A DNA stretch of 34,199 nt. Source: Archaeoglobaceae archaeon (GTDB lineage: Archaea; Halobacteriota; Archaeoglobi; Archaeoglobales; Archaeoglobaceae). The stretch lies in NCBI GenBank assembly GCA_015520485.1, contig WAPX01000014.1:1-34199 (forward strand), read 5' to 3'. A program made the position numbers and the translations under genes. Shown piece by piece: positions 7,646-31,911 of this stretch. A model generated the notes under the pieces. That model made no database searches and was not told the DNA's origin. It saw only the letters and a program-made list of their open reading frames with translations. Each line of letters begins with the position of its first letter. The stretch's first letter is position 1.

Positions 7646-9511
7646 ATGGGGTACATGGGTAAGATTCTTGACGTCAACCTCAGCGAGGGCAGCGTCAAAG
7701 TCGGGAAAACGGACATGGAAATAGCCGAGAAGTACATCGGCGGTAAGGGCTACGCAACTGCCGTCCTGTACGAAATTCTCAGGGAATATTCAAAAGAGGG
7801 AATTTCTCCAAAGGACATAAACCCCCTCGGGGAAGAGAACGTAATAGTATTTGCCACTGGACCCGCAACCGGAATCGCGGGCTTTCCATCATCTGGCAGG
7901 TATCACGTAATGGCTCTCAAATCTCCTTTAACGAATTCCATTGCGAGTGCGAATTCTGGAGGTAAATGGGGGCCTTACTTAAAATTTGCCGGATTTGACG
8001 CTGTAATAGTAAGAGGTGCTTCTCCTGAGCCGGTATACCTCGAAATCTTCGATGGAGGGGCAGAAATAAGAACGGCAACACACCTGTGGGGAAGGACGAC
8101 ATTTGACACGACAAAAATTCTTACCGAGAAGTACGGAAAGTGCAGCGTAACGTGCATAGGTCCGGCAGGAGAGAATGGAGTTCTGTTTTCAGCCATAATA
8201 AATGACAACCACAGAGCGGCTGGGAGAACCGGCGTTGGAGCAATAATGGGAAGCAAGGGATTAAAGGCGATAGTTGTTGGTGGAAGCAACAGACCTGAAC
8301 CGGCTGAACCGGGGAGGTATAAAGAAGTCGTTAAGAAAGCTGTGGAAAAAATAAAGTCCCATCCAGTAACAAGTGAAGGTCTGCCTAAGTACGGAACTGC
8401 CGTTCTCGTCAACATAATAAACAATGCCGGAATATTCCCGACGAAGAACTGGCAAACCGGAGTGCATCCAAAAGCTGATGCCATAAGCGGTGAAACTCTC
8501 GCCGAAAAGTACCTCATAAGAAATGGTGCCTGCTGGGGCTGTCAGATAGGGTGTGCGAGAGTAACGAAGGTTGATTCTGGAGCTTATCAGATAAAGTACT
8601 CTGAAGGCCCGGAGTACGAGTCGATATGGGCTCTTGGGGGAACAACAGGTATAGAAGAACTCGACGCAGTAATCAAGGCAAACCACCTTTGCGACGAGCT
8701 CGGAATTGACACGATATCAATGGGTTCAACAATAGCCTGCGCAATGGAACTCGTGGAGAAAGGTTACATTCCCGAAGAGCTGCTTGAAGGGATCGATCTG
8801 AGGTTTGGAAACGCTGCGGCAATTGTTGAAATGGTCTGGAGAACTGCATACAAGAGCGGTTTTGGAAAGTATCTGGCTCTCGGCAGTAAGAGGCTCGCAG
8901 AGCTCTTCAACTGTCCCGACCTTTCCATGAGCGTTAAGGGACTGGAGCTTCCGGCTTACGATCCAAGAGGTGCGAAGGGTATCGGCCTCAACTACGCAAC
9001 TGCAAACAGAGGTGGCTGTCACGTTACAGGCTATACCATATCTCCGGAGATACTTGGTTGCCCTGAGAAGATCGACCCGCTTAGCTACGAGGGCAAAGCC
9101 CAGTGGGTTAAGGCATTCCAAGACTTTACCTGCGTTGTAAATTCAGCCGTAAACTGTCTGTTCACGACGTTTGCTCTCGGTGCTGAGGACTACGCACACC
9201 TGCTCTCCGCAGTTACGGGCAGGGAGCTGAACACCGAAGATATAATGCTGATCGGAGAGAGGATATACAACCTCGAAAGGTACATAATGAACCTGTACGG
9301 CTTCGACGGAAAAGACGATGTCCTGCCCAGAAGGCTGCTCGAAGAACCAATGCCTGAAGGAGCTGCAAAGGGAGAAGTCGTCGACTTGGACAGGCTGAAA
9401 GAGGAGTACTACAAACTCAGGGGATGGGAGAACGGAAAGCCGACGAAAGAGAAGCTTGAGGAGCTCGGCATTCCCGAGTTAAAGCTCTCCAAAGTTTCGC
9501 CAGTAGTATGA
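7646..9511 (+). CDS. aor: Aldehyde ferredoxin oxidoreductase (tungstopterin AOR family)
   Basis: This 621-residue member of the AOR family oxidises aldehydes to carboxylates with ferredoxin as electron acceptor, using a tungsten bis-pterin and one [4Fe-4S] cluster. The N-terminal domain begins GYMGKILDVNL and has the pterin-contact regions GGKGYATAVLY and SGRYHVMALKSPLT. Cluster cysteines are C296, C299 and C303 in ACWGCQIGC; the fourth is probably C504 in VNSAVNCLF. The second pterin motif YDPRGAKGIGLNYATANRGG lies at 438-457. All key sites are present, so it should be active. The aldehyde substrate is not predictable; the family also includes formaldehyde, glyceraldehyde-3-phosphate and carboxylate-reducing enzymes. 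The gene appears to be a single-gene unit with its own TATA box and a following oligo-T terminator. Confidence 0.95.
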   Translation: MGYMGKILDVNLSEGSVKVGKTDMEIAEKYIGGKGYATAVLYEILREYSKEGISPKDINPLGEENVIVFATGPATGIAGFPSSGRYHVMALKSPLTNSIASANSGGKWGPYLKFAGFDAVIVRGASPEPVYLEIFDGGAEIRTATHLWGRTTFDTTKILTEKYGKCSVTCIGPAGENGVLFSAIINDNHRAAGRTGVGAIMGSKGLKAIVVGGSNRPEPAEPGRYKEVVKKAVEKIKSHPVTSEGLPKYGTAVLVNIINNAGIFPTKNWQTGVHPKADAISGETLAEKYLIRNGACWGCQIGCARVTKVDSGAYQIKYSEGPEYESIWALGGTTGIEELDAVIKANHLCDELGIDTISMGSTIACAMELVEKGYIPEELLEGIDLRFGNAAAIVEMVWRTAYKSGFGKYLALGSKRLAELFNCPDLSMSVKGLELPAYDPRGAKGIGLNYATANRGGCHVTGYTISPEILGCPEKIDPLSYEGKAQWVKAFQDFTCVVNSAVNCLFTTFALGAEDYAHLLSAVTGRELNTEDIMLIGERIYNLERYIMNLYGFDGKDDVLPRRLLEEPMPEGAAKGEVVDLDRLKEEYYKLRGWENGKPTKEKLEELGIPELKLSKVSPVV

Positions 9512-27119: not shown

Positions 27120-27140
27120 AGCTTTTTTTCCGTGTGGCAA

Positions 27141-28133
27141 ATGAGGTTATCAGAAGTCTTTAAAGAAGTCCTGAAAGAAAAGGGAATTACGAGGATATGG
27201 CCGTGCACGGACATGTGGAAACTTTCAGCTCTCGTAGCGGAAAACAGGGCAGTGGTCTGCAAAGCAAGGAACTGCAGAATTTCAATGAATCTGGATGAGA
27301 AGTGTGAGATGAAAAGTGCTCAGGCCTGCGTGATTCCGGCCAGTAAATGCGATGAAGTAATTCTGAGCGGAGATGAACTGCTGAAAAGAGCTGGTAGATA
27401 TCCATTCGTGCTGATAGACTGCAGGTATCACAGCGTCCACACGGAAAAGGAGTTAAGGAGGTTGAGGCTGCAGCTAAAATGCACCGTGGGAGTAATAAGA
27501 AAATTCATGTGGAGCGGGAAAATGGTTGTTACCGGAAAAAAATTTCCCGAAGTTGAGACTCCTTTCTACCGTGAAGCCGAAGAATTTTTTAAAGAAAAAA
27601 ATATAGAAAAAATATTGTTACTTGACCCAAATGCAGAAGAAGAATTTTCAAATAATGATAAATATGACTGTTACGTTATCGGTGGTATAGTTGATCTGTG
27701 TGGCAACAAAAAAGGACTCACTTCTAAACTCGGAAGGGAGCTGGAAAGAAGTGGCGTGGAAGTTATTTCAAAGAAGTTTACGTTAAAGGGTGACGTAACA
27801 GGAGTACCGGACAGAATAAACTCCATAGCGGAAATACTGCTCATGTGCGTGATAGACGGAAAGAATGTTGAAGAAGCAATATACTCCGTCCAGTCTCCAC
27901 TCGTGGCGAGGTGGAGGCTGAGAAAAGAGCTTGCAAAACTCTCTTTCAGACTCGATAAACTTGCTGAACTGGACTTTCCTGTAAGAGCTGTGAAAAAGCA
28001 GGATCTCAAAAAGCTTGAATGGTTGAAAATCAGAGAAAAGGACTTTTACCGGGAGTGCAGAAAACTCGGTTTTTACGTTATCGACGAATCGTTTCTGAAA
28101 ACGATTTCGGGTGATGAGTATGGCGTTCGATGA
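27141..28133 (+). CDS. trm10: Archaeal Trm10 tRNA m1A9/m1G9 methyltransferase (SPOUT)
   Basis: Archaeal Trm10 methylates N1 of A9 or G9 in tRNA using a SPOUT trefoil-knot fold. Family blocks are visible: WSGKMVVTGKKFPE near 125-138, LLLDPNAEEEF, then the knot region YVIGGIVDLCGNKKGLTS, and GVPDRINSIAEILLMC followed by EEAIYSVQSPLVARWRL. The N-terminal 75 residues contain six cysteines (C22, C40, C45, C55, C63, C70 from the ATG at 27141), a possible metal-binding domain for tRNA that I do not recall in other Trm10 proteins. The total of 330 residues agrees with the archaeal form. The 3' end overlaps tatD by 14 bases. Confidence 0.85.
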   Translation: MRLSEVFKEVLKEKGITRIWPCTDMWKLSALVAENRAVVCKARNCRISMNLDEKCEMKSAQACVIPASKCDEVILSGDELLKRAGRYPFVLIDCRYHSVHTEKELRRLRLQLKCTVGVIRKFMWSGKMVVTGKKFPEVETPFYREAEEFFKEKNIEKILLLDPNAEEEFSNNDKYDCYVIGGIVDLCGNKKGLTSKLGRELERSGVEVISKKFTLKGDVTGVPDRINSIAEILLMCVIDGKNVEEAIYSVQSPLVARWRLRKELAKLSFRLDKLAELDFPVRAVKKQDLKKLEWLKIREKDFYRECRKLGFYVIDESFLKTISGDEYGVR

Positions 28134-28956
28134 CTCTAATAAAAGTGTGGAAAGTACAGAAATGCCCGGATTTAATTCAGCAGAGCTGCGAGAGATAAAC
28201 TTGATAGACTGCCACGCACACATGGAGCTGTACAGGAAAAGCGATGTTGAAAAGGAGATTAGAAAAGCAAAAAGCTGTGTAAGAGCAGTTTTCGACTCAA
28301 TGACTGAGTACAGAAAAGCTCACGTTCACAAAAGCTGGGAACTTCTGAAAAATTACTTCGGCTTCATTTTTCCAACTTTGGGTTATCACCCGAACGAAGC
28401 CAAAAGGGGAAACTGGGAAAAGGTCGAAAGAGTTGAAGAATTTCTGCTCGATCACGCAAAAGAGATAGTAGCCGTGGGAGAGATAGGACTGGATTTTTAC
28501 CATGCGACAGCAGATAGAGAGCGGGAAAATCAGCTGAAAATTTTCAGACATTTTCTTTCTATCGCATCCGAACTGGATTTGCCTGTTGTCATTCATGCGA
28601 GAGAGGCGGAGGAAATAGCCATAAGGGAAGTTGAAAGGGCGGGTGTTGAAGCTTACTTTCACGCTTTTGCTGAAGCCGAACTGACGAAAAGCGCACAGGA
28701 TGCAGGATACATAGGAATAAGCACGGGAATAGCGTTTATGCCTCAGGTTAAGAGGGTTGCTGAAAAGGCATCTGTTGAAAGGATGTTCGTTGAAACGGAC
28801 AGCCCGTTTATGAGTCCGTTCAAGGGTATGACGAACAACCCCTGCAACGTATCAGTTGCTGTGAGAGAACTGGAAAAGCTTAAATCTATTGAAGCTGATG
28901 AAATAATGTCTGCAGTACTCAAAAACGTCAGGGACTTCTTCGGAGTTGAGCTATAG
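28120..28956 (+). CDS. tatD: TatD-family metal-dependent hydrolase (DNase-like)
   Basis: This is a TIM-barrel metallohydrolase of the TatD family; TatD proteins cut DNA or RNA ends and serve in repair or tRNA processing. Metal motifs: DCHAHMEL near residues 28-35 from the start used, the glutamate in VGEIGLDF, HAREAEE, FHAFAEAEL and VETDSPFMSP. All six ligand positions appear intact. The start at 28120 (MAFDDSNK) is preferred because GGTGA at 28110-28114 is five bases before it; upstream ATG and GTG codons at 28114 and 28111 would add two or three residues. The 14-base overlap with trm10 points to coupled translation. An inverted repeat follows at 28982-29028. Confidence 0.9.
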   Translation: MAFDDSNKSVESTEMPGFNSAELREINLIDCHAHMELYRKSDVEKEIRKAKSCVRAVFDSMTEYRKAHVHKSWELLKNYFGFIFPTLGYHPNEAKRGNWEKVERVEEFLLDHAKEIVAVGEIGLDFYHATADRERENQLKIFRHFLSIASELDLPVVIHAREAEEIAIREVERAGVEAYFHAFAEAELTKSAQDAGYIGISTGIAFMPQVKRVAEKASVERMFVETDSPFMSPFKGMTNNPCNVSVAVRELEKLKSIEADEIMSAVLKNVRDFFGVEL

Positions 28957-29028: not shown

Positions 29029-29143
29029 AATGGTTCATACTTTTTAGGAACCTTTGTTAAACCTTAAAAAGCGTTTTTTGGCCCTGTAAAGGGTATTTAA
29101 AAATTATCAACCGTGCATGATTACAATAATTATGTTCCAGAAA

Positions 29144-29154
29144 GTTTATATAAG
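29144..29154 (+). promoter_or_regulatory. Strong TATA box of the 53-residue gene
   Basis: GTTTATATAAG is close to the archaeal consensus and is the best TATA box of the plus strand in this window. It predicts a start near 29173 and a leader of about 13 bases that includes GTGAT, a match to part of the archaeal anti-Shine-Dalgarno site. Confidence 0.65.
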
Positions 29155-29185: not shown

Positions 29186-29347
29186 ATGAGGCGATTCGAC
29201 CGCAGATCTTTTGAAAGAAAGGGTTTAAACAAGCTTTTGAGCAAAGATGAAAAGCTGCTGCTGGACAACCTACAGGATTTGAAGGCCGAGAGCCTCAGAA
29301 TGAGTATCAAGGAAATAGCCAGAATGGTTCTGCCCGACGAGTACTGA
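29186..29347 (+). CDS. Small basic protein of 53 residues, unknown
   Basis: This short frame starts MRRFDRRSFERKG and ends RMVLPDEY, 53 residues, with no other start needed. It has a charged, arginine-rich N terminus and two leucine-rich helices (KLLSKDEKLLLDNLQDLKAESL and IKEIARMV), so a helix-turn-helix or coiled-coil-like fold is possible. Codon use resembles that of neighbouring genes and a strong TATA box lies 32-42 bases upstream, which is why I consider it real. I do not recognise a family. It precedes the MoaD-like gene by 74 bases on the same strand. Confidence 0.6.
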   Translation: MRRFDRRSFERKGLNKLLSKDEKLLLDNLQDLKAESLRMSIKEIARMVLPDEY

Positions 29348-29421: not shown

Positions 29422-29637
29422 ATGGGAATAGTGAAGTTGAAGATAAGGTTTATAGGTTTCGAGGAGGGTGATAAGTCCGTGGAGGTTGAAGAGGGCAAAA
29501 CTTACTCGGATTTGATACTCAGCCTCGGCATAAATCCAGAAACGGTAATAGTACTGCGAAACTCCACACCTCTCCCGCTTGACGAAAAAGTTGAAGGTGG
29601 AGAAATAACAGTGATGAGAGTAATTTCGGGTGGTTAA
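29422..29637 (+). CDS. MoaD/ThiS-like ubiquitin-fold protein with C-terminal Gly-Gly (SAMP candidate)
   Basis: This 71-residue beta-grasp protein ends exactly in VISGG, the di-glycine tail needed for activation by an E1-like enzyme. Family features are the opening strand VKLKIRFIGF, the helix YSDLILSLGI, and the late strand ITVMRVISGG. Such proteins serve as sulfur carriers for molybdopterin/tungstopterin or thiamine, or as archaeal ubiquitin-like modifiers (SAMPs), or both. The JAMM protease gene that can remove such modifiers lies just beyond the decayed transposase, about 990 bases downstream, so the pair probably belonged together. AOR in this window needs pterin, giving an alternative role. 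No E1 (UbaA-like) gene is present. Confidence 0.85.
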   Translation: MGIVKLKIRFIGFEEGDKSVEVEEGKTYSDLILSLGINPETVIVLRNSTPLPLDEKVEGGEITVMRVISGG

Positions 29638-29678
29638 TTTAAATTCTCTTCTATTTTTGCTTTTATTTTATTACCTTG

Positions 29679-29688
29679 AGCAAAACTA
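29679..29688 (+). repeat. Left candidate terminal inverted repeat of the IS630 relic
   Basis: AGCAAAACTA matches the reverse complement of TAGTTTTGCT at 30555-30564. The two sites lie just outside the transposase frame on either side. Confidence 0.5.
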
Positions 29689-29695
29689 TTAATAC

Positions 29696-30551
29696 ATGGG
29701 CAGAAAGCGAATCTACGAAGTTGTAAAGCACTTGCCACAGAAGAACTCGATAAGAGAATCAGAAGGCTCGAAAAAGATACGAGAGCTTAAAAGGCTTTGC
29801 ATAAGATACACAGAAGGAATAACTCAGAGAAATTAAGGAAAGAGATTCGTGGACGACGAAAGAGGTTCAGGAACTGATAGAAGCAGAGTTTGGAGTGAAT
29901 TATTCTTCGTGGCAGGTCAGAAGAATTCTCGGATATTTCGGAATGAAGTACGCCAAGCCCTACCAGAAGGATTACAGAAAGCCTGAAAATGCTGAAGAGA
30001 GTTTAAAACGCACGTCACTTCGTGACGGCGCGCCGTGCTACGCACGCGAAACCTGAGTAAAGCCGAGATCAAACGTCATAAGATTTACCGATGAAAAGGC
30101 TGTTGAAGCAAGCAAATACTGCAAGGCTGTGGAGCTTTGGAAAGCATTAAGAGTTGCCACGTTACCAAGGTTTCAGGATTCTACAGCCTGAACGGAGAGA
30201 GCGTAATAGAGTTTTCAGAAAGAAACAGGTCAGAAGACTTCATATCTCAGGAAGATAAGATGTTAATCAAAAAAGGATCGTAATCATTCTCGATTTCAAA
30301 ACGCATAATGCAAAGTAAGAGAGGAGGCTGAAAAACTTAATATTGCTGGTTTTTCTTCCTCTTTACTCTCCCGATTTGAATCCGATTGAAAACGTTTGGA
30401 AGTGTTAAAAGGTTTCTGAGACATCTCCGTTGAATATAGAAGAACTTAGAGAAACGATTGCTAAGGCATTCAAAAAGTTAACGGAGTCGATATCTTTTGC
30501 GAAGGGATTGAGAAGTTCTTGGGTGATAAGTTTAGGATGTTATGCACTTAA
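29696..30551 (+). pseudogene. Decayed IS630-family transposase
   Basis: This is a relic of a DDE transposase of the IS630/Tc1-mariner group. The N terminus MGRKRIYEVVKHL is followed by frameshifted pieces: EELDKRIRRLEKDTR (another frame), SWTTKEVQELIEAEFGVNYSS, then WQVRRILGYFGMKYAKPYQ, next VIRFTDEKAVEA, GFYSLNGESVIEFSE, IVIILDFKTHNAK, and the catalytic DDE end FLPLYSPDLNPIENVWK. The last coding piece (EGIEKFLGDKFRMLCT) ends at 30551. At least four frameshifts, internal stops and probable deletions make it inactive. A GC-rich palindromic block (30009-30048) interrupts the middle. Candidate 10-base inverted repeats flank it. Confidence 0.85.
30009..30048. other. GC-rich palindromic block inside the transposase relic
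   Basis: Three palindromes lie side by side: CGTCAC-TTC-GTGACG (30013-30027), GGCGCGCC (30027-30034) and CGTGC-TAC-GCACG (30034-30046). The block is much richer in GC than the surrounding AT-rich DNA. Confidence 0.7.
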
Positions 30552-30554
30552 CCG

Positions 30555-30564
30555 TAGTTTTGCT
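30555..30564 (-). repeat. Right candidate terminal inverted repeat of the IS630 relic
   Basis: TAGTTTTGCT is the exact inverse of AGCAAAACTA at 29679-29688 and lies four bases after the last transposase codon. Confidence 0.5.
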
Positions 30565-30623
30565 TCAGACAACCGTTATGTTTCACCACAACAGCTTTTT
30601 ACAGCTCACTTAGAACTTTCTTA

Positions 30624-31097
30624 ATGGTTTTTGATAAATTTCGCCAGTTTTTCGGGAAAAAGAGTGAAAACAAAAATGAAAAAATTGAAAAAGAGTGTAG
30701 AAGCAAAATAAAAAAGGTTAAAGCAAGTTATACGATTTCTAGGGAAGTGCTGGAAACAGCCATAGCCGCTGCAAGGGAAAGTCACCCCCACGAGTTCATA
30801 GCCATGCTTGGTGAGAGCAAAAAGAGGAAAAACCACATAGACGAGCTCATTTTTCTTCCTTCCATCAGCGGTGGCGTCAGTGCTATCATACACATGGACA
30901 TGCTGCCAATGGGGATGAGAGTTCTTGGAACCGTGCACAGCCACCCTTCACCTTATCCGTATCCATCTGAGCAGGACCTGGAATCCTTCTCGAAAAGGGG
31001 AAGGGTTCACATAATCATCGCTTACCCCTATACTATGAACAGCTGGAGAGCGTACAGCAGTTCCGGAGAACCGGTAACCGTGCGTGTTGTGGATTAG
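30624..31097 (+). CDS. JAMM/MPN+ metalloprotease (AfJAMM-like, deubiquitinase-type)
   Basis: This is a 157-residue JAMM-domain protease that can release ubiquitin-like proteins. The zinc site is complete: Glu57 in HPHEFIAML, His105 and His107 in GTVHSHPSP, and Asp118 in the SEQDL motif (H-x-H, seven residues, S-x-x-D). From memory the sequence is close to A. fulgidus AF2198 (the AfJAMM structure), through HPHEFIAML, ELIFLP, IHMDMLPMGM, and SHPSPYPYPSEQDL. The first 32 residues are a basic, coiled-coil-like extension (KKSENKNEKIEKECRSKIKK) not present in that protein as I recall it. The gene sits 72 bases after the dead transposase; a MoaD-like protein is encoded on its far side. Confidence 0.9.
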   Translation: MVFDKFRQFFGKKSENKNEKIEKECRSKIKKVKASYTISREVLETAIAAARESHPHEFIAMLGESKKRKNHIDELIFLPSISGGVSAIIHMDMLPMGMRVLGTVHSHPSPYPYPSEQDLESFSKRGRVHIIIAYPYTMNSWRAYSSSGEPVTVRVVD

Positions 31098-31117
31098 TGC
31101 CGCTGTAATATACGAAG

Positions 31118-31191
31118 TGGGGCCGCCGAGATTTGAACTCGGGTCACCGGCTCCCAAAGCCGGGAGGATCACCAGGCTACCCCACGGCCCC
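31118..31191 (-). tRNA. tRNA-Pro (anticodon TGG)
   Basis: The minus strand folds into a 74-base tRNA: acceptor GGGGCCG pairs with CGGCCCC, the anticodon stem CCGGC/GCCGG encloses the loop TTTGGGA with anticodon TGG, and the T arm has GGTTCAAAT. The discriminator base is A and the 3' CCA is not encoded. A TATA-like element at 31214-31224 lies about 25 bases before the tRNA 5' end. Confidence 0.93.
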
Positions 31192-31230
31192 TCTGAACAG
31201 CAAGAGATAACTCGATTAAAAATCTATCGA

Positions 31231-31911
31231 TTATAGCAGGTGTATCTCGGTTATTTTCCTGAACTCAAGGTCGAGTAGCACCATCGAGAACACGGCTATT
31301 ACAAACGAAACTATGTATATGTTGCTTGCAACAGCCTTCTCGTAAATGTTTGCAAGAATAGAGGCTAAATAAAACATCATAAATACGAGGTACGCCATGA
31401 GCGATGGCTGTAAGTTTGCAGGCTCAATTATTAGTGAGAGAAGTTTAATGTATTTAAAAAGTTTTACAAGTATTGCAAACACAACGAGTGCAGTAACAAT
31501 TATTACTACATCTGCCACATTCGGGCTTAGCCTAACCCTTTCGAATATCATCCACAAAACGGCTATGTAAAAAGGAATATTCAGACAATCCTTGCAGAGC
31601 TTAACCTGCGACATTGAACTCTTCAGTATTGTCCTCAGCAGGATAACGTTGAAGATCAGTATGTAGAGAATAACCGTAAGTTCAAGCACTTTTCTCGCAG
31701 ATGCAAGAAAAACGTAACTGTGTGTTCCGGGAATTACATCAAGCAAAAGCCTTGTAAGTGCAATGGTTACCAGAGCAAGAAGTGCGTAAAAAGTTTCCTT
31801 TATCTTCCAGTTAAGCTCCTCTATTTGAGCCCTGCACAGTATGGAGTAGTTTATCAGCGCCACCGCAAAGCTGATTGTGCAGAGGAACGAAATGACGTAC
31901 GCTGAAATCAT
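31231..31911 (-). CDS. Unknown polytopic membrane protein
   Basis: This is a 226-residue protein with about seven hydrophobic helices (for example MISAYVISFLCTISFAVAL at the N terminus, VFLASARKVLELTVILYILIFN near 70-90, and VADVVIIVTALVVFAILVKLF near 130-150). Short charged loops and two conserved-looking cysteines (LCKDCLNI near 105-112) may lie at one membrane face. No family was recognised. It has a TATA-like element 25-30 bases before the ATG at 31911 and stops beside the tRNA-Pro promoter. The neighbours tRNA-Pro and topA give no functional clue. Confidence 0.6.
   Translation of the reverse strand: MISAYVISFLCTISFAVALINYSILCRAQIEELNWKIKETFYALLALVTIALTRLLLDVIPGTHSYVFLASARKVLELTVILYILIFNVILLRTILKSSMSQVKLCKDCLNIPFYIAVLWMIFERVRLSPNVADVVIIVTALVVFAILVKLFKYIKLLSLIIEPANLQPSLMAYLVFMMFYLASILANIYEKAVASNIYIVSFVIAVFSMVLLDLEFRKITEIHLL

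Follow-up and report, generated by a model that had tools for sequence, protein, structure and literature searches.

In the 34,199-nt stretch of Archaeoglobaceae DNA analysed here (contig WAPX01000014.1; hereafter the window), a gene for a SAMP2-type ubiquitin-like protein is preceded by a gene for an overlooked 53-residue microprotein and followed by a JAMM metalloprotease gene, with a decayed insertion element in the spacer between the last two. Our comparisons show that it is the microprotein, and not the JAMM protease, that constantly accompanies SAMP2: the SAMP2-JAMM pair is real, yet it is limited to one genus, interrupted by the insertion element in the window, and not a general archaeal module. 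The account we consider probable is that the locus consists of this constant-partner microprotein, then SAMP2, then, in this genus only, an AfJAMM-type desampylase, that an IS630 element entered the spacer later, and that the products would work through an E1-like protein, an Ncs6-type thiolase and JAMM-mediated recycling.

The 71-residue protein (positions 29422 to 29637, forward strand) is identified by its profile matches as a SAMP2-type ubiquitin-like or sulfur-carrier protein. It scores 66.1 bits against the Pfam SAMP2 family (PF21965; cut-off 27), its closest solved relatives by sequence are Haloferax volcanii SAMP2 (4hrs, 2l32), TtuB and Pyrococcus furiosus SAMP2 (5lda), and it ends in RVISGG with the stop codon immediately 3' of the Gly-Gly. 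Its 57.8 bits against the NCBIfam SAMP2 equivalog (NF041919) lie below the curated cut-off of 70. Downstream on the same strand, the 157-residue product of positions 30624 to 31097 is an AfJAMM-type JAMM/MPN+ metalloprotease with a predicted desampylase role. It carries the complete EXnHSHX7SXXD motif and a Prok-JAB domain (58.5 bits, cut-off 25), is about 57% identical to its A. fulgidus homologue AfJAMM (AF2198; phmmer E 7.5e-41 against 1oi0), and its residues E57, H105, H107, S115 and D118 are invariant among nine homologues; its score against the haloarchaeal desampylase family NF041370, 26.1 bits, is below the equivalog cut-off of 130. Each of the two genes has a single match in the source genome. 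The JAMM proteins of the window genus also bear an N-terminal extension with a hydrophobic or basic start and a variable linker (window positions 30624 to 30725, and loci L061, L062 and L063), which is longest in the window, at 34 residues, and is missing from most other Archaeoglobales JAMM proteins.

Between the two genes lie the remains of an IS630-type element (positions 29679 to 30564, forward strand), with HTH_33 (37.6 bits, cut-off 25) and DDE_3 (37.7 bits, cut-off 28.6) transposase pieces in shifted frames and no intact transposase ORF. The earlier note's description of a Gly-Gly beta-grasp gene and a complete AfJAMM-type JAMM gene on one strand, with a decayed IS630 between them, is thus borne out by the profile scores, the full JAMM motif and the broken transposase. 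The ends of the element may be marked by a perfect 10-nt inverted repeat, AGCAAAACTA (29679-29688 and 30555-30564); chance can also produce inverted repeats this short, so these ends are tentative, and a TA target duplication was not identified. With the ends so placed, the 41 nt from SAMP2 to the element and the 59 nt from the element to JAMM add up to a spacer comparable to those of congeners. A second IS630-type remnant occurs elsewhere in the source genome, on contig C48 (L169:272-770), directly 5' of an ITPase-like gene and a MoaD-like gene.

Synteny dates the insertion relative to the pair. Among five congeners compared, three (G041, G042 and G044) have both genes and lack the element, and in all three SAMP2 and JAMM are adjacent on the same strand, separated by roughly 67, 37 and 79 nt, respectively; neither gene has a match in the other two genomes, G040 and G043, which are incomplete (76% and 68%). 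Since the two genes adjoin in relatives free of the element, and the window retains a similar spacer of about 100 nt, the IS must have entered a pre-existing pair. Sequence and synteny together establish that it inserted into this spacer and then decayed, leaving both genes undamaged. A further candidate for an IS-free sister, L179 (contig JALTDM010000131.1, labelled Bacteroidales; JAMM 98% identical), was excluded: its final 617 bp are 98.9% identical to window positions 30705-31321, and it looks chimeric because unrelated ABC-transporter/GntR-type sequence upstream is joined to them inside JAMM, at an A-rich stretch.

The pair belongs to a larger block, whose order of Trm10, TatD, 53-residue ORF, SAMP2 and JAMM is common to the window, G041 and G042. 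In the window the block is headed by a Trm10-like tRNA methyltransferase gene (27132 to 28133, forward strand), which scores 218.7 bits against NCBIfam Trm10, under the equivalog cut-off of 550, and continues with a gene for a TatD-family metal-dependent hydrolase (28111 to 28956, forward strand; Pfam TatD_DNase, 179 bits). The presence of the Trm10-like gene in first position agrees with a published survey that links archaeal ThiS-type ubiquitin-like genes to tRNA modification. Beyond the block the genes differ: a convergent tRNA-Pro (TGG) gene bounds it in the window (31117 to 31191, reverse strand, about 20 bp past the JAMM stop codon) and was the only Rfam match in the region, whereas G041 and G042 have GATase/DUF2148 genes and G044 has serpin and nucleotidyltransferase genes, the serpin gene lying between JAMM and the nucleotidyltransferase-family gene (L061:1686-2948).

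Outside the genus the pair disappears. Among the matches listed with both coordinates given, 4 of 47 genomes place JAMM no more than 5 kb from SAMP2, and 4 of 80 place it that close to the microprotein; all are of this one genus, and the next nearest JAMM is 44 kb away. Genomes that carry SAMP2 and JAMM on separate contigs are unlikely to have them closely linked, although contig ends could still hide cases. A scan of a second contig collection gave 64 JAMM loci, spread over Archaeoglobi, Thermoplasmata, Methanosarcinales, Thermococcus and Micrarchaeota; SAMP2 lies in the flanks (up to 3 kb per side) at only three of them, which are those of the same congeners, and at none of the other 61. Adjacency is thus a single evolutionary event in one genus, and Jab-Ubl neighbours are, as published, rare in archaea. 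The earlier proposal of a modifier/deconjugase module pulled apart by an insertion is supported in part: SAMP2 and JAMM are neighbours in three IS-free congeners, and the pairing is confined to their genus.

This distribution also lends weight to the idea that adjacency arose by a chance rearrangement in the ancestor of the genus, that the genes work unlinked as they usually do, and that the pair carries no special meaning. Adjacency is a single event in one genus, JAMM is near-universal (243 of 246 phylum genomes) regardless of its position, and the window and some congeners have T-rich stretches 3' of SAMP2 at which transcription may stop ahead of JAMM. Against it, the pair and the three genes upstream have persisted across divergent species while the flanks were variously rearranged. 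We regard chance as a serious contender that falls somewhat short of even probability.

The microprotein shows a very different distribution. Encoded just upstream of SAMP2 (positions 29186 to 29347, forward strand), and left out of the region delimited by the earlier note, it has the sequence MRRFDRRSFERKG...LPDEY, with a basic N-terminus and a predicted single long helix that an AlphaFold2 model places at residues 6-48 (mean pLDDT 86). About 33 nt 5' of its ORF lies a TATA-box-like sequence, GAAAGTTTATATAA (29140 to 29153, forward strand), which is similar in four of four genus genomes in an upstream alignment and would be a promoter. Congeners share 79-87% identity in the microprotein, and within the genus dN is about 0.06-0.16 while dS is about 1 or more, or saturated, with differences mostly at third codon positions, a pattern indicating that the ORF is under purifying selection.

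Among the matches listed with both coordinates given, the microprotein gene immediately precedes SAMP2 in all 54 genomes, ranging from Archaeoglobales to Methanosarcinaceae-like families, and several genera have a 4-nt overlap between its stop codon and the SAMP2 start codon. BLAST places it beside SAMP2 in 10 of 11 Archaeoglobaceae genera with SAMP2 loci, where the next-best neighbour family reaches 4 of 11. Within the order it was detected in 46 of 57 genomes, and a profile search recovered it from 123 of 392 phylum genomes in 40 genera; SAMP2 was present in 353 of the 392. At further methanogen loci a SAMP2-like protein is encoded just 3' in 8 of 10 cases, and likewise in most of another locus set. 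Several of these methanogen-family SAMP2-like proteins end in QG, RG, SG or AG rather than GG (L145, L146, L147, L149, L156, L158 and L160) and so have lost the penultimate glycine.

Across the phylum the microprotein measures 40-57 residues, with a mean column identity of 45% and the majority consensus MSKFxKRxxERKGxKKxExLEEKLIxENLEDLK; the phylum-wide alignment lacks a conserved stretch of 7-10 columns. Some methanogens, including G066, G115, G119 and G173, keep it with no SAMP2 match in the phylum search, and no SAMP2 was seen 3' of it at the loci read in G115 or G344. In the light of these cases it may be independent of SAMP2. Gene order suggests that the microprotein probably acts with SAMP2, as a putative adaptor, chaperone or regulator. 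A bolder reading is that in Archaeoglobales as a whole, in Methanosarcinaceae-like families and in several others of the Halobacteriota it is a dedicated, undescribed component of the archaeal ubiquitin-like/sulfur-transfer pathway that steers SAMP2 between tRNA thiolation and conjugation, to which JAMM was added in this genus to make a three-gene unit; we hold this tentatively, as close to an even call.

The source genome encodes the partners that such a pathway would need: one E1-like (ThiF/E1) protein, on contig C15, and an Ncs6-type protein on C8 (TIGR00269, 145 bits, cut-off 62.75). Following what is known of these families, the E1-like protein would adenylate the C-terminal glycine of SAMP2, which would pass sulfur to the Ncs6-type thiolase for tRNA 2-thiolation and could also become isopeptide-linked to proteins, and the JAMM protease would free SAMP2 from these conjugates and recycle it, with the microprotein perhaps joining at the SAMP2 step. 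In Haloferax, tRNA thiolation requires SAMP2 and UbaA, and NcsA is itself modified by SAMP2 in conjugates that HvJAMM1 collapses (PMC4048286); PfJAMM1 of Pyrococcus cleaves several SAMPs, and CsJAMM of Caldiarchaeum cleaves SAMP precursors (PMC6043591). These three enzymes supply the precedent for a JAMM desampylase. The AfJAMM studies that the earlier note also invoked do not, AfJAMM having been inactive on the substrates tried, namely ubiquitin derivatives, labelled casein and D-alanine compounds (PMC300881).

The activity of CsJAMM also raises the possibility that JAMM chiefly matures SAMP2 precursors by trimming residues past the Gly-Gly, more than it releases SAMP2 from conjugates. Several Archaeoglobaceae SAMP2 genes encode one to three residues beyond GG (NAS, STS, N or NFR; L042, L060, L045, L049 and L038), which would make their products precursors in need of trimming, and in those genera the role is plausible. 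As the chief function we think it unlikely: SAMP2 of the window genus, like that of most other genera, ends exactly at GG and has no tail, so that trimming is unneeded there.

Least likely of all is the suggestion, also made earlier, that the small protein is a MoaD making pterin for the aldehyde ferredoxin oxidoreductase (AOR) at 7646-9511; the window does hold a complete AOR, the protein does match the ThiS/MoaD superfamily (PF02597; 26.5 bits, cut-off 22.5) and a published survey finds some ThiS-family genes near AOR genes, but it scores far better as SAMP2, lies some 20 kb from AOR and shows no genomic link to MoaE or other MoCo genes, and pterin synthesis is unlikely to need it because the source genome has two more Gly-Gly MoaD-like proteins (on C19, ending MPPFSGG, and C48, ending PPIAGG) and a MoaE on another contig.

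To our knowledge, archaea of this kind carry out ubiquitin-like conjugation with an E1 and with no recognised E2 or E3, and candidate partners of SAMPs are therefore wanted. The microprotein, encoded beside SAMP2 in all the genomes compared over a large part of a phylum, qualifies as one: no Pfam or NCBIfam family matched it above cut-off, a literature search with fragments of its sequence found nothing, and it has no entry in a published gene-context table (PMC2948915, Table 1). Returning to the locus as we read it, with a predicted desampylase joined to SAMP2 in this genus, the two genes would be a naturally matched enzyme and substrate on which cleavage could be assayed directly, and SAMP2 of the genus may provide the substrate that AfJAMM assays were missing.

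One close parallel is the SAMP2/HvJAMM1/UbaA/NcsA system of H. volcanii, whose counterparts, a SAMP2-type protein, a JAMM protease, an E1-like protein and an Ncs6-type thiolase, all occur in the source genome. Unlike that system, the window has SAMP2 and JAMM side by side and both score under the respective NCBIfam equivalog cut-offs for SAMP2 and for the haloarchaeal desampylase; no microprotein was detected in those families whose SAMP2 matches, of haloarchaeal type, are strongest. The window SAMP2 is likewise related to PfSAMP2 of the P. furiosus JAMM1-SAMP2 system, and the JAMM protease resembles AfJAMM in identity and complete motif, differing from it in the N-terminal extension seen in the window genus; in the relative genome G001 the gene before JAMM is instead isopropylmalate dehydratase-like, and SAMP2 is far away. 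The association of Jab with cytidylyltransferases (Makarova & Koonin 2010) has an echo in G020, where a nucleotidyltransferase-family gene is beside JAMM, and in G044, where it is next but one, whereas in the window, G041 and G042 no such gene comes after JAMM. Finally, the Caldiarchaeum subterraneum Ub-E1-E2-E3 operon with Rpn11 (PMC6043591) also brings ubiquitin-like and JAMM genes close together; the window differs from it in having no adjacent E1, E2 or E3 and in using a modifier that is SAMP-type rather than Ub-type.
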